Of a stretch of DNA of 20,058 nucleotides, positions 8,716 to 18,569 are shown piece by piece. Made by a program: the position numbers and the translations under genes. A model generated the notes under the pieces. That model did not search any database. It saw nothing but the letters and a program-made list of their open reading frames with translations, and had not been told where the DNA came from. Each line of letters starts with the position of its first letter. Positions within the stretch are counted from its first letter, which is position 1. The stretch is from a virus, in the IMG/VR virus record IMGVR_UViG_3300027797_000188, positions 1 through 20,058 of that record. One strand, given 5' to 3'.

Positions 8716-8967
8716 TTAAAATGGAACGTCATCGTCCATTGCAAAATTTGTACGCTTTGGAGCAGCCTGTTTAACGGGCCTATCTTCTTTGGGCTTGACC
8801 GATAGACTCATAAACTTTTTACCCGTCTTCTCGCTTGTTTTAAGCCATCCTGAAACCCACAAGTCAACGCCATTCACGTTTAAACTACCTTTGTAGTCTG
8901 GATGATTATCTTGTTGCTTGTCATCGTTTTTAAAGATGGCTCCGCGATTGCTGTTATCGTATTCCAT
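8716..8967 (-). CDS. Single-strand-binding-like protein with SSB-type tail
   Basis: An 83-residue protein. Residues 1-60 start MEYDNSNRGAIFKN and contain a short beta domain (DYKGSLNVNGVDLWVSGWLK, then GKKFMSLSVKPKE). Next come a basic Pro/Ala linker and the acidic tip DDDVPF (78-83). The tip closely copies the DDDIPF end with which bacterial SSB recruits partner proteins. The size is below a full OB-fold SSB, so it could be a minimal SSB or a mimic of the SSB tail. AGGA is 5 nt before the ATG at 8967, and the ERF stop is one base upstream. Adjacency to ERF supports a recombination/replication role. Confidence 0.65.
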   Translation of the reverse strand: MEYDNSNRGAIFKNDDKQQDNHPDYKGSLNVNGVDLWVSGWLKTSEKTGKKFMSLSVKPKEDRPVKQAAPKRTNFAMDDDVPF

Positions 8968-8968
8968 T

Positions 8969-9583
8969 TCATTCCTTTGCTTTTTTAATAGCCGAACGGG
9001 TCTTGCTGTCAAGCAATGACCACAATGCGACCTTTTGATCGGCTTCTAGCTTTTCCGCATCAAGCCTGTCAAGAGCTTGTTTTGGATTGCCTTCAGCCAC
9101 GTTAGCGATTAAATCAATCGCTAATTCTTGAAGGTACTGCATTTCCTCTGGAGGAATAGTGTCTGCAATACCCTGCGAGGGGGTGATGATAACTTTCTTG
9201 TCTTCCACAGGTTTAGAAGAATCAAGCGCATCGTGTTCAACAATCTCTAGCGCAGCAACCCACAAGTATCTGCGGATGTAAGTCTGTACTGCGCCAAGGT
9301 TCTGAACTGGATGGCAACCTTTAAGATTGGCCTCCGACATGGGAGACTCAATCACAATCATTTCTTCTGGCTTGTCAGTGTTGATAATTCGCATATCAGC
9401 AGACTCTTTGCCAAAACTGATAACGCTTGTCAATCCAACTTCATCAAAGATGCTCAAGGCTGGAACAATGAAGTCACCAAGTTCAAAGTATTTGTAACCA
9501 GCAAACTTGTTGTGGCCTGATTTTTTTAGTTCAGTGCTGTGGAACTTATGCCGAGCATCATTAAGTTTTTGATATACATTCAT
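8969..9583 (-). CDS. erf: ERF-family single-strand annealing protein
   Basis: A 204-residue recombinase of the ERF superfamily (P22 Erf type), which anneals complementary single strands in phage recombination and genome circularisation. The N-terminus (VYQKLNDARHKFHSTELKKS) and YKYFELGDFIVPALSIFDEVGL (30-52) are family-like. The signature is QNLGAVQTYIRRYLWVAALE (94-113), equivalent to the GSA.TYARRY core. A variable linker and an acidic/basic helical C-terminus follow. AAGGA lies 6 nt before the ATG, which overlaps the upstream stop (ATGA). The usual partner nuclease is not adjacent; the VRR-NUC-like gene at 11951 could serve. Confidence 0.87.
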   Translation of the reverse strand: MNVYQKLNDARHKFHSTELKKSGHNKFAGYKYFELGDFIVPALSIFDEVGLTSVISFGKESADMRIINTDKPEEMIVIESPMSEANLKGCHPVQNLGAVQTYIRRYLWVAALEIVEHDALDSSKPVEDKKVIITPSQGIADTIPPEEMQYLQELAIDLIANVAEGNPKQALDRLDAEKLEADQKVALWSLLDSKTRSAIKKAKE

Positions 9584-10816: not shown

Positions 10817-11566
10817 ATGCTTCTAAAGCCAAAAAACTGGGCCGTCTTTCAACATTACAAAGACCGTTGCCCACCGTGGATCAAACTCCACCGCGACCTC
10901 CTTAACGACCGTGTTTTTATGTGCTTGCCACTTGCTAGCAAGGCGCTTGCACCTTTGCTTTGGTTGCTAGCATCAGAGTCCAAAGACGGTACTTTTGATG
11001 GCTCACTGGATGAGCTAGTGTTTCGGTTGCACATCACACCTAAAGACTATCAAGATGGCGTTAAGCCGTTGATTGATAAAGGTTTTTTTGTTATTGCAAG
11101 CAGAGTGCTAGCAGAGTGCTATCAAGATGCTATCCCAGAGACAGAGGGAGAGACAGAGACAGAGAAAGAGGGAGAGACAGAAAAGAGGCAGAAAAGCAAT
11201 CGCGGTTCGCGCTTGCCTGTGGACTTTGTTTTGCCAGAAGATTGGATTTCTTTTTGTCAAACAGAACGCAAGGATTTGGATACAGCAAAGGTTTTTGCAG
11301 AATTTAAAGATTACTGGTGTGCTTTGCCAGCAGGTAAGGCCACTAAGGTTGATTGGACAATGACATGGCGCAATTGGGTTCGCAGACAGTCTGCACCTAA
11401 ACAATCCTTTGCCCAACAAGCCGCTGACGTTGCCCGGTCAACAGTCCCTGCCCAACACACTGGTCGTGACCCTGTGCTGCTCAAAATTGAGGCAGACCGA
11501 AAGAACGCTGCGCCAATGCCAGAACACATTCGCCAACAAATTGCACAAGTATTGAGAAAAGTATGA
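10817..11566 (+). CDS. Replisome organizer, winged-helix plus DnaT-like domain
   Basis: A 249-residue replication protein. The N-terminal domain (about 8-98) is typical of phage initiators: WIKLHRDLLNDRVF, then LAPLLWLLASESKDGTFDG and VKPLIDKGFFVI, a winged-helix layout. A low-complexity Glu/Thr/Lys linker follows (107-125). The C-terminal domain (133-190) resembles the DnaT primosome domain, with LPEDW, FAEFKDYW and VDWTMTWRNWVRRQ, which binds ssDNA and helps load the replicative helicase. The overall role parallels lambda O or a DnaT-type loader. No helicase or primase gene is seen, so host DnaB/DnaG are probably recruited. The linker-coding DNA is repetitive and may be the origin. Confidence 0.8.
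   Translation: MLLKPKNWAVFQHYKDRCPPWIKLHRDLLNDRVFMCLPLASKALAPLLWLLASESKDGTFDGSLDELVFRLHITPKDYQDGVKPLIDKGFFVIASRVLAECYQDAIPETEGETETEKEGETEKRQKSNRGSRLPVDFVLPEDWISFCQTERKDLDTAKVFAEFKDYWCALPAGKATKVDWTMTWRNWVRRQSAPKQSFAQQAADVARSTVPAQHTGRDPVLLKIEADRKNAAPMPEHIRQQIAQVLRKV
11100..11195 (+). repeat. Direct repeats and purine tract inside the replication gene, candidate origin
   Basis: GCAGAGTGCTA is repeated in tandem (11100-11110 and 11111-11121). A nearly pure A/G tract follows, with AGAGGGAGAGACAGA at 11143-11157 and again at 11167-11181 (24-bp period). The palindrome TGCTAGCA occurs at 10933, 10975 and 11106 in the same gene. By analogy with lambda, whose origin lies inside gene O, these could be initiator-binding iterons. 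The alternative is slippage-prone coding of the charged linker. Confidence 0.4.
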
Positions 11567-11954: not shown

Positions 11955-12214
11955 GATACGCAAGCCGTGTGGACGCAAATCAGGCTGAAGTGGTTGCACA
12001 GCTACGAGCAGCAGGTGCTTACGTCTGGGTCATTGCCCTACCTGTTGACCTTTTGGTTGGCTACAACGGTCAGACATTCTTGGTTGAGATCAAGGATGGC
12101 CCTAAAAAGGGTTTAACGAGGCTACAGCAAGACTTTTTTGGGAATTGGATAGGTGGTAGCCTACACCGCATTGATGGCCCTGAAGACGCTTTACGCATGA
12201 TTGGGGTGCTATGA
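11951..12214 (+). CDS. VRR-NUC-like PD-(D/E)XK nuclease
   Basis: An 87-residue minimal restriction-fold nuclease. RVDANQAEVVAQLRAAGAYV gives the first helix. PVDLLVGYNG carries the catalytic Asp33, FLVEIKDG carries the Glu46-x-Lys48 pair, and LTRLQQDFF supplies a Gln-containing helix. This order (D, E-x-K, Q) is that of VRR-NUC and related junction-resolving phage nucleases. It probably cuts branched or replicating DNA beside NinB and ERF; it could also be the end-processing partner of ERF. It is coupled by ATGA on both sides. Confidence 0.75.
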   Translation: MRYASRVDANQAEVVAQLRAAGAYVWVIALPVDLLVGYNGQTFLVEIKDGPKKGLTRLQQDFFGNWIGGSLHRIDGPEDALRMIGVL

Positions 12215-12522
12215 CATTAGACATGAAAAGCCGTGAGCAGGAACGCCTTTATCACGCAATCATCAACCAGATTGCCAAACAATCAAAGTTGCACGGTAGC
12301 CGCTGGACATCTGAGTCGTGGAAACGATACCTGATTGACCAGTGGGCGCATGAGAACGGCGAGTCAGCATCTGTTAGCAAAGTAATGCCAAGCATTGATG
12401 GGCTGCGTGTTGTCCAGTTAGGTCTGCAAAGCCGAAGGTTTACCAAAGAGCAAGCCATCAGCTTTACCGAGTGGTTGATTTATTGGGCAACAACAAATGG
12501 AGTAACCCTTGAAGATCGCTGA
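12211..12522 (+). CDS. ninB: NinB-family recombination protein
   Basis: A 103-residue protein matching the NinB family. It has SREQERLYHAIINQIAKQ (7-24), WTSESWKRYLIDQWAHE (32-48), then IDGLRVVQLGLQSRRFTKEQ (62-81) and FTEWLIYWATTNGV. Lambda NinB (Orf) is an ssDNA- and SSB-binding mediator that can replace host RecFOR functions. This copy is shorter than lambda NinB, mostly at the ends. ATGA overlap with the nuclease upstream, and overlap with the HNH gene downstream, mirror the lambda nin-type neighbourhood. Confidence 0.85.
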   Translation: MTLDMKSREQERLYHAIINQIAKQSKLHGSRWTSESWKRYLIDQWAHENGESASVSKVMPSIDGLRVVQLGLQSRRFTKEQAISFTEWLIYWATTNGVTLEDR

Positions 12523-12793
12523 AGTCATTCACAAAGGCAAAGTAGCAAGCCTTGGCTGTGCGCTGTGCCACCATTTGCATGGCGACCATGAACCCGGCCC
12601 TGTAGAGCTTCACCACCTAAGAGCAGGTGGATGGGGCAAAGGCAACTACCTGACTTTAATTCCACTATGCGTTGAGCATCACCGTGGCAATAAGGGTTTT
12701 CACGGGCTTGGCAGCAAAGGCTTTGTTGAATACTATGACATCACTCAGCAAGAACTGCTTGAGTGGACACTTAACAAGATAGGACAAACATGA
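12509..12793 (+). CDS. Ref-like HNH nuclease (recombination enhancement family)
   Basis: A 94-residue HNH-type nuclease. Cys17 and Cys20 (CALCHH), ELHHLRAGGWGKGNYLTLIP (33-52), LCVEHHRGNKGFHG (53-66) and GSKGFVEYY match the core of P1 Ref, a RecA-dependent nuclease, and of YbcO/NinG-like proteins beside ninB in lambdoid phages. The start is TTG at 12509 with GGAG 6 nt upstream; no ATG would preserve the Cys motif. It overlaps ninB by 14 bases. It likely processes recombination intermediates; whether it needs host RecA is inferred from the family. Confidence 0.78.
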   Translation: MKIAEVIHKGKVASLGCALCHHLHGDHEPGPVELHHLRAGGWGKGNYLTLIPLCVEHHRGNKGFHGLGSKGFVEYYDITQQELLEWTLNKIGQT

Positions 12794-17643: not shown

Positions 17644-17835
17644 TTAGTAAGTAAAGCCAATAAAAACGAGTTTGTCTGCCTTGATGTAAACGTGTCGGTT
17701 GATGTCTTCCGTATCAGTGCATTCAAATGACTTGGTAGACCTGTCATATGCACCTTTGATGAAGACAGTCTTAGCGTCTTCTTTTCGCTTGATGTATTCA
17801 CCGGGTTTAACTGACTTGATGGTGGTCTGTTGCAT
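17644..17835 (-). CDS. 63-aa small barrel-like hypothetical, first gene of the accessory operon
   Basis: The protein starts MQQTTIKSVKPGEYIKRKED. AKTVFIKGAYDRSTKSFECT, then DINRHVYIKADKLVFIGFTY resemble a recurring short family of phage and plasmid proteins (VKPGEY.KRK...KLVF.GFTY), known to me only as hypothetical. Strands predominate, so a small beta barrel is likely. It shares the PG-x-[WY]-I core with the next gene, hinting at a common fold. GGAG lies 8 nt before the ATG. Confidence 0.65.
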   Translation of the reverse strand: MQQTTIKSVKPGEYIKRKEDAKTVFIKGAYDRSTKSFECTDTEDINRHVYIKADKLVFIGFTY

Positions 17836-17870
17836 GAGGAAATCTCCTATAAAAAAACAATGGGGTCTTT

Positions 17871-17899
17871 ATTGCATCACAGCACAGACAAGTTATCAA
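17871..17899 (-). promoter_or_regulatory. Candidate promoter of the leftward accessory operon
   Basis: On the minus strand TTGATA (17894-17899) and TGCAAT (17871-17876) stand 17 nt apart, 5/6 and 4/6 of the sigma-70 consensus. The -35 overlaps a near-DnaA box (TTATCAACA, 17893-17901), so DnaA binding could affect it. The first gene starts 36 nt downstream. Confidence 0.5.
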
Positions 17900-18136
17900 C
17901 AAAAAAATCCTCTTTTGTGTCTGTTTCTAGCACAGGCCCATAAAAGCCCCTAGAAGGCCTTTTAAGACGTTTTAGGCTTTTCCCATATTTACCCATCAGA
18001 AAAAGTTATCCACACTGCTAGTGCTATCCATCCACAGATTTTGGTCTTATATAAGACTGACAACCTGTGTATAACTCTGGCCTGTATCTTGCACATGTGT
18101 GGATAACTTTGCCTTGTGTGTACAAGCTGTGCATAA
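17893..18136. other. DnaA-box cluster, candidate replication origin or DnaA-controlled switch
   Basis: Four perfect TTATNCACA sites: TTATCCACA (18007-18015, plus), TTATACACA (18066-18074, minus), TTATCCACA (18098-18106, minus) and TTATGCACA (18128-18136, minus). A one-mismatch site, TTATCAACA, is at 17893-17901 on the plus strand. They lie in an intergenic region between the leftward operon and the HNH gene, around a 14-bp palindrome. This density is far above chance and is the layout of a DnaA-binding region. Confidence 0.7.
18045..18058. promoter_or_regulatory. Perfect 14-bp palindrome GTCTTATATAAGAC
   Basis: The palindrome is perfect and AT-centred, in the middle of the DnaA-box cluster. 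It contains TATAAG on both strands, which could be a -10 element in either direction. A dimeric regulator site or an unwinding element is possible. Confidence 0.45.
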
Positions 18137-18137
18137 T
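18109..18137 (+). promoter_or_regulatory. Candidate promoter for HNH-terminase genes
   Basis: TTGCCT (18109-18114) and CATAAT (18132-18137) are 17 nt apart, 4/6 and 5/6 of consensus. Transcription would start near 18144, the chosen ATG, which would give a leaderless message. The -10 overlaps a DnaA box. Confidence 0.4.
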
Positions 18138-18143
18138 TCATGG

Positions 18144-18569
18144 ATGCCCACATCACCACCTACACAGTGCAGCAAGTACAGATGCAAGCATCCTTCTGTC
18201 AAGGGAAGCACCTTTTGTGCAGAGCATGCACCACCCAAGACCACCACCCAAGACCGACAAGCATTCAATGCCCATTACAAGACAGCAGCATGGCAAACCC
18301 AAAGGGCCATTCAGTTATCTAAACAGCCACTGTGCCAAGCCTGTCTATTGAATAACCAGATAACCCAAGCAGAACATATAGACCACCTATTTGCATGGTC
18401 TGATATTGGCGAATCAGCATTTAAATTAAATATATTCCAAAGTTTGTGCGAATCACATCATTCGATAAAAACAGGTCTTGAATCTAAGGGCATATATAGA
18501 CATTACACAGTTAATGGAGAAAAGGATTATTCATTATCTGATTATTACTCTGTGGTTACTTTATCCTAG
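18144..18569 (+). CDS. HNH endonuclease upstream of terminase
   Basis: A 141-residue HNH nuclease. An N-terminal zinc motif uses Cys9, Cys14, Cys25 and His28 (TQCSKYRCKH, then STFCAEHAP). A middle CxxC (Cys64, Cys67) precedes the HNH core: EHIDHLFAW (77-85), Asn96, then LCESHHSIKTG (101-111). Phage HNH proteins beside terminase genes commonly help the large terminase cut DNA at packaging sites. I chose ATG 18144 because the preceding in-frame GTG at 18099 runs through two DnaA boxes and has no ribosome-binding site. The upstream DNA lacks a clear Shine-Dalgarno. Confidence 0.82.
   Translation: MPTSPPTQCSKYRCKHPSVKGSTFCAEHAPPKTTTQDRQAFNAHYKTAAWQTQRAIQLSKQPLCQACLLNNQITQAEHIDHLFAWSDIGESAFKLNIFQSLCESHHSIKTGLESKGIYRHYTVNGEKDYSLSDYYSVVTLS

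Follow-up and report, generated by a model that had tools for sequence, protein, structure and literature searches.

Iteron/DnaA theta origins of the P1 oriR, F and pSC101 type carry DnaA boxes, AT-rich repeats and, next to them, iterons of about 20 bp, and bacterial oriC gathers inward-facing TTATNCACA boxes into one intergenic cluster. DnaA boxes also cluster outside origins, as in E. coli datA and DARS. For the lytic Pseudomonas phage vB_PseuGesM_254, Ori-Finder predicted an origin with DnaA boxes and an AT-rich region (PMC11512268). A different kind of site is the operator of SdhR, a HutC/GntR regulator, which has the form TCTTATGTCTTATATAAGACATAAGA with the core TCTTATATAAGA (PMC4494728).

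Here we analyse a cluster of DnaA boxes in one intergenic gap of a 20,058-bp linear IMG/VR virus record, the whole of which we call the window. DnaA/iteron control regions are already known; what is new is the spread of this module among unrelated phages and its apparent incorporation of a host metabolic operator core. The original prediction, which had singled out the cluster in the window, missed the sharing among unrelated Comamonadaceae phages, the SdhR operator core, the sigma54-like motif and the iterons present in related copies.

A DnaA box cluster between divergent genes

Across the full 20,058 bases TTATNCACA occurs exactly four times, and all four sites fall inside 131 bp (18006-18136; Table 1). 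Simulated sequences of the same composition (Markov order 1-3, n=4,500) held at most two such sites per 250 bp, with three found in 0 of 4,500; the four-box cluster is beyond chance. The count over the window agrees with the original prediction of four exact boxes, three of them in one orientation, between divergent genes, and the AT palindrome that it described is likewise present, perfect over 14 bp. The near box that it placed at 17893 is also there, although a second one, TTGTACACA at 18117 on the minus strand, had escaped notice. From left to right, the module is ordered as box 1 (+), box 2 (+), TCTTATATAAGACT, box 3 (-), the sigma54-promoter-like motif and box 4 (-).

Table 1. Features of the module and of neighbouring or related genes in the window.
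Feature	Coordinates	Strand	Basis and remarks
Phage replication/primosomal-type protein (the DnaT-like organizer of the original prediction)	10817..11566	+	phrog_26426, phrog_3992
Small leftward gene, first to the left, no family	17644..17835	-	ATG at 17835
Intergenic control region holding the whole module	17836..18143		308 bp, between divergent ORFs 17644-17835(-) and HNH ATG 18144(+)
Near DnaA box TTATCAACA	17893..17901	+	near-match scan
DnaA box 1 TTATCCACA	18006..18014	+	exact; kept in 7/7 close relatives and DC31
Box 2 position, decayed, CATCCACAG	18029..18037	+	alignment; TTRTCCACA in most other phages
Palindrome GTCTTATATAAGAC, putative core of host SdhR (GntR/HutC) operator	18044..18057		perfect, 14 bp
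DnaA box 3 TTATACACA	18066..18074	-	exact; 59-60 bp from box 1, constant across unrelated phages
Sigma54-promoter-like motif TGGCCTGTATCTTGC (GG-N10-GC)	18078..18092	+, rightward	consensus; candidate function
DnaA box 4 TTATCCACA	18098..18106	-	exact; covers predicted sigma54 start
Near box TTGTACACA	18117..18125	-	exact box in L003, L005, L008
DnaA box TTATGCACA	18128..18136	-	exact; kept in 7/7 close relatives
HNH endonuclease gene, first to the right; TerS and TerL come next	18144..18569	+	phrog_144 E=4e-20; TerS PF05119; TerL phrog_9

The right-hand border of the gap is set by the HNH gene, for which we take the conserved ATG at 18144 as the true start. The GTG at 18099, inside a DnaA box, is a mechanical ORF start only; in most of the distant HNH relatives the alignment begins only at about residue 7-16. 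The boxes had also been said to overlap both candidate promoters. This claim is weak: a sigma70 scan returned one plus-strand site (18109-18137) against 1.5 expected, and we rejected a sigma70 promoter pair because the number of sites is at chance level. The module region matched no known RNA family. The window is only mildly AT-rich, its lowest GC being 33% in 60 bp.

Searching with the HNH gene yielded 53 viral loci, seven at 79-86% HNH identity and 46 at about 43-58%. The seven close relatives all have boxes at the same offsets from box 1 (0, +60, +92, +111 and +122), some single boxes having decayed. The near box TTATCAACA is retained in four of them (L004, L005, L006 and L008), and in the other three (L002, L003 and L007) an exact box lies farther upstream. 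Absence from close relatives, which the original prediction had named as a refutation, did not occur, and the spacing is conserved in all seven as well as in unrelated phages. No comparable cluster was found at the 46 loci of about 43-58% identity, and Methylophilaceae phage P19250A, the nearest isolate by TerL, has a single lone box; the cluster is therefore a property of one clade and not of the HNH-terminase arrangement. Gene arrangement in the HNH relatives without boxes is otherwise similar, and contigs of HNH relatives often terminate just past HNH.

Purine-rich 12-bp direct repeats (11136-11181) lie within the window's replication-protein gene and could be an O-type origin. The window also has recombination genes, at 8716-9583 and 12211-12793; an ERF annealing protein and NinB are encoded there, as is a RecA-dependent nuclease-like protein that falls just under the cut-off.

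The module in unrelated phages

With the gap as BLAST query, the one isolate matched was Limnohabitans phage DC31, which is 79% identical across a 115-bp stretch that has the boxes at its centre. DC31 is a 76-kb phage with its own DNA polymerase and primase-helicase, and its module lies in an unannotated gap. The three-box spacing pattern retrieved 11 viral loci, and the pattern TCTTATATAAGACTNANAANCTGTGNATAA retrieved 57 viral contigs that differ in their terminases and replication genes. In alignment, the 5' part of these copies reads TACCCCTTGGAAAAAG-TTATCCACA-CnnnTAGTGnTAC-TTRTCCACA-gattYAr-STCTTATATAAGACTRAYAACC, and the 3' part continues from STCTTATATAAGACTRAYAACC as TGTGGATAA-CTCTGGCAYGATAnTTGC-nnnC-TGTGGATAA. 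A second isolate, Curvibacter phage P26059A, carries a reduced copy at 72.3 kb. The papers describing DC31 and P26059A do not mention DnaA (PMC12195039, PMC5964084), and our literature search turned up no published account of the module.

The carriers include the window clade (phrog_9 TerL and a replication/primosomal-type protein), podovirus-like contigs, DC31 and P26059A. Podovirus-like contigs such as G1110 encode a T7-like DNA polymerase, primase-helicase, PhoH, a ClpP-like protease and a phrog_2 TerL, and we presume that they resemble HMO-2011-type phages. Both isolates have hosts in the Comamonadaceae, a bacterial family common in freshwater, and on the basis of these two the host group is the only common denominator seen among carriers. 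The T7-like phage P26059B, which shares its host with P26059A and encodes its own RNA polymerase, contains no DnaA box. Even within the window clade the replication gene is exchanged: the relative G1107 has no homologue of the protein encoded at 10817-11566 and carries instead a different gene, for an O-like/primosomal protein (L235 12691-13422), with the module retained.

In both isolates the module occupies a large non-coding gap among same-strand genes, away from the terminase genes (at 20 kb in DC31 and 72 kb in P26059A); at 28 of 56 loci, it has terminase genes on its right and leftward-running small genes. Boxes in full contigs are concentrated mainly at the module. Outside the core, exact boxes up to 300 bp away reach 1.86 per kb, against 0.037 per kb elsewhere in the loci, and are thus 50-fold denser; these flanking boxes point inward, 41 of 42 on the right side being minus and 6 of 6 on the left side plus. 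We found no plasmid homologues, nor an initiator gene beside the module, and a scan of ten further G1110 proteins turned up no replication initiator.

At least 120 viral contigs (L239-L355) have three or more tandem TTATCCACA boxes with gaps up to 30 bp, mostly not related to the module, so DnaA clusters are not unique per se; the palindrome core is nearby in only 1 of 117 tandem-box loci checked. Some loci depart from the common layout. L172 (8967-9190) keeps box 1-TAGTG-box 2 and has seven DnaA boxes and GATAGC repeats where the palindrome would be, and in a subgroup (L127, L134, L135, L149, L155 and L168) ACCCACTGGGT palindromes replace box 2 and, in several, also the sigma54-like motif.

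Motifs and repeats associated with the module

To avoid circularity, we ran a palindrome-independent search that used only boxes 1, 2 and 3 with the TAGTG spacer. Exact TCTTATATAAGA was present, at a fixed distance, in all 17 loci recovered, with box starts 58-60 bp apart. As this is the core of the SdhR operator, we assign the palindrome to that operator core by consensus; the full 26-bp form is only partly present in the module, and phage L126 has the longer SdhR half-site. In 41 Burkholderiales genomes we counted 32 occurrences of TCTTATATAAGA and 5 of the reversed control; TCTTATATAAGA frequently lies between genes that we named from their translations as malate dehydrogenase (mdh) and a GntR regulator. 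Burkholderiales chromosomes also have an SdhR-type palindrome upstream of a gene resembling atpI (L174 1501-1530 and L217), and a single DnaA box adjoins it in L174.

Three further motifs are putative assignments by match to consensus. GGC-N7-TTGC, the sigma54 -24/-12 signature, follows box 3 in 37 of 57 module copies, and in the window the sequence at 18078-18092 fits GG-N10-GC with TGGC/TTGC. DC31 has the sigma54-like motif, with its right-hand gene directed toward it, and P26059A lacks it. In eight loci (L128, L138, L140, L142, L144, L146, L150 and L162) a LexA-like box, TACTGT-N8-ACAGTA, takes the place of box 4 at the same offset (+52 from the palindrome), and at +94 there is, in five of these eight (L128, L138, L140, L142 and L150), a parS-like GTTTCACGTGGAAC or GTTTCACATGGAAC (GTTTCAC(G/A)TGGAAC).

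In about 15 loci from two phage types, the right side of the module continues into a 20-bp periodic array, TTGTGACTGnnnAGTnTAnA; the corresponding lag-20 peak is generally absent on the left. DC31 has three AT-rich 16-mers followed by six 20-bp repeats, and direct repeats within the 17-22-bp range of iteron origins stand beside DnaA boxes in DC31, L060, L131, L154, L157 and others. The window clade has neither iterons nor AT-rich 16-mers, and the window copy is not classed as an iteron origin. In L060 (10338-10640), L131, L154, L157, L129 and L136, the 20-bp iterons TTGTGACTGnnnAGT are interrupted in register by a TTGTAGGnnCCTACATC-like palindrome; the L060 array lies in a non-coding gap of ~900 bp upstream of TerS.

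The original prediction had also named the lack of a local change in GC skew as a refutation. There is no such change at the site in the window, nor is there a reversal at the module in DC31 or P26059A. Skew follows gene direction in the module phages, so this carries little weight, and a reversal is not required of phage origins.

Candidate functions and comparison with known systems

Our best reading, in which we place middling confidence, is that the module would be a host-DnaA-dependent replication origin, also bearing transcription signals, that has passed between Comamonadaceae phages. The gap would be a compact control region worked through host proteins. Host DnaA would bind the inverted boxes that flank the TATATA palindrome and would open or mark the DNA, after which a phage helicase loader (in the window lineage) or primase-helicase (in DC31 and the podovirus-like lineages) would enter. 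In several relatives the 20-bp iteron array, preceded in DC31 by the AT-rich 16-mers, would complete a plasmid-like origin, and the window lineage would represent a short form of boxes, palindrome and rightward sigma54-like motif.

An origin is favoured by the iterons, by there being one main cluster per genome, by the persistence of the module when replication genes are exchanged and by its placement in DC31 and P26059A. That placement, in a non-coding gap among same-strand genes with no evident right-hand promoter role, fits an origin better than a promoter. We also count in favour of this reading that the cluster exceeds chance, that its spacing is kept in close relatives and unrelated phages, that the boxes around the core are dense and face inward, and that P26059B, a phage supplied with an RNA polymerase of its own, has no box. 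Against it stand the lack of a skew reversal, the absence of iterons or a strong AT-rich stretch from the window lineage, the alternative O-type origin that the repeats in the window's replication gene could provide, and the indications of transcription given by the sigma54-like motif and the exchange of a DnaA box for a LexA box. A pure transcription switch is a strong competitor, particularly for the window's own lineage with its lack of iterons; we regard it as possible, though on balance doubtful. DnaA, a host SdhR-type repressor and sigma54 polymerase would together time expression of the early genes to the left and of the HNH-terminase operon to the right, with no replication start, and would couple phage expression to host replication and carbon state. 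Such a switch would account for a sigma54-like motif in most copies, for box 4 lying over the predicted start, for the LexA-like substitution, for the invariant operator core and for the flanking gene order at half of the loci. However, the right-hand gene of DC31 faces the motif, P26059A has no motif, a promoter has no need of iterons, and sigma54 requires an enhancer protein, of which we identified none. Origin and promoter roles may both apply at once.

The original prediction had offered a second origin, a titration device or a switch linking transcription to replication. These span the plausible range, and the boxes are real and conserved; the interpretation is partly supported, with a second origin as a candidate. 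A titration site, which would soak up host DnaA and slow host replication in the manner of datA, seems improbable: several consensus boxes on multiplying DNA would suit it, but titration does not demand fixed spacing, an invariant palindrome or iterons, and the module has just a handful of boxes. The DnaA boxes and, in five phages, parS-like GTTTCACGTGGAAC might suggest that phages acquired a copy of the host chromosomal oriC. No Burkholderiales record had the three-box spacing (84,980 species searched), none of 351 genomes from a single Burkholderiales family matched the DC31 module, and a scan of 399 Burkholderiales genomes for the palindrome-box unit brought up 2 stray hits, sets in which the presence of Limnohabitans or Curvibacter genomes was not established. 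We took the searched genomes as Burkholderiales because the anchor genome is rich in Bug-family (TctC) genes. The dnaA-proximal regions of 30 Burkholderiales loci have few boxes and no palindrome. Lacking a counterpart in the genome scans sampled, a captured oriC was rejected as very unlikely. A component of a packaging site (cos or pac) would explain why TerS and TerL adjoin in half of the loci and why contigs of HNH relatives often stop just after HNH, but box-less HNH relatives are similarly arranged; with the modules of DC31 and P26059A away from the terminase genes, we rejected this role too, and consider it highly improbable.

If the module is an origin, a bolder and so far speculative extension, which we think unlikely in its full form, is that unrelated lytic Comamonadaceae phages trade a host-tuned origin cassette. 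DnaA, an SdhR-type repressor of the TCA cycle and sigma54 polymerase would then act on one 130-bp module, and replication and late transcription would be gated together by the replication and metabolic state of the host. To our knowledge, an origin is known for hardly any environmental phage. A module that can be recognised from its sequence in phages with several different replication systems would provide abundant freshwater phages with a testable origin, would serve as a tag tying viral contigs to Comamonadaceae hosts and would exemplify how lytic phages read the replication initiator of their host; the link to host metabolism suggested by the embedded SdhR core and sigma54-like motif is directly testable in two isolated phages.

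Compared with described systems, the module resembles iteron/DnaA theta origins in DC31 and L060, where DnaA boxes, AT-rich repeats and iterons are adjacent; it differs in that no initiator gene was found alongside, the window form is iteron-less, and the users are lytic phages with their own replisomes. With bacterial oriC it shares a single intergenic cluster of inward-facing boxes, but it is unmatched to any sampled Burkholderiales origin and has an SdhR-type operator core and a sigma54-like motif, both assigned by consensus. The origin of vB_PseuGesM_254 is a prediction in one genome, whereas the module recurs across many lineages. E. coli datA and DARS are chromosomal and without the fixed phage architecture of palindrome and iterons. 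Proteobacterial SdhR operators share the core TCTTATATAAGA (PMC4494728); in hosts they stand at mdh, GntR-regulator and TCA genes, whereas here the core lies within a phage DnaA cluster.
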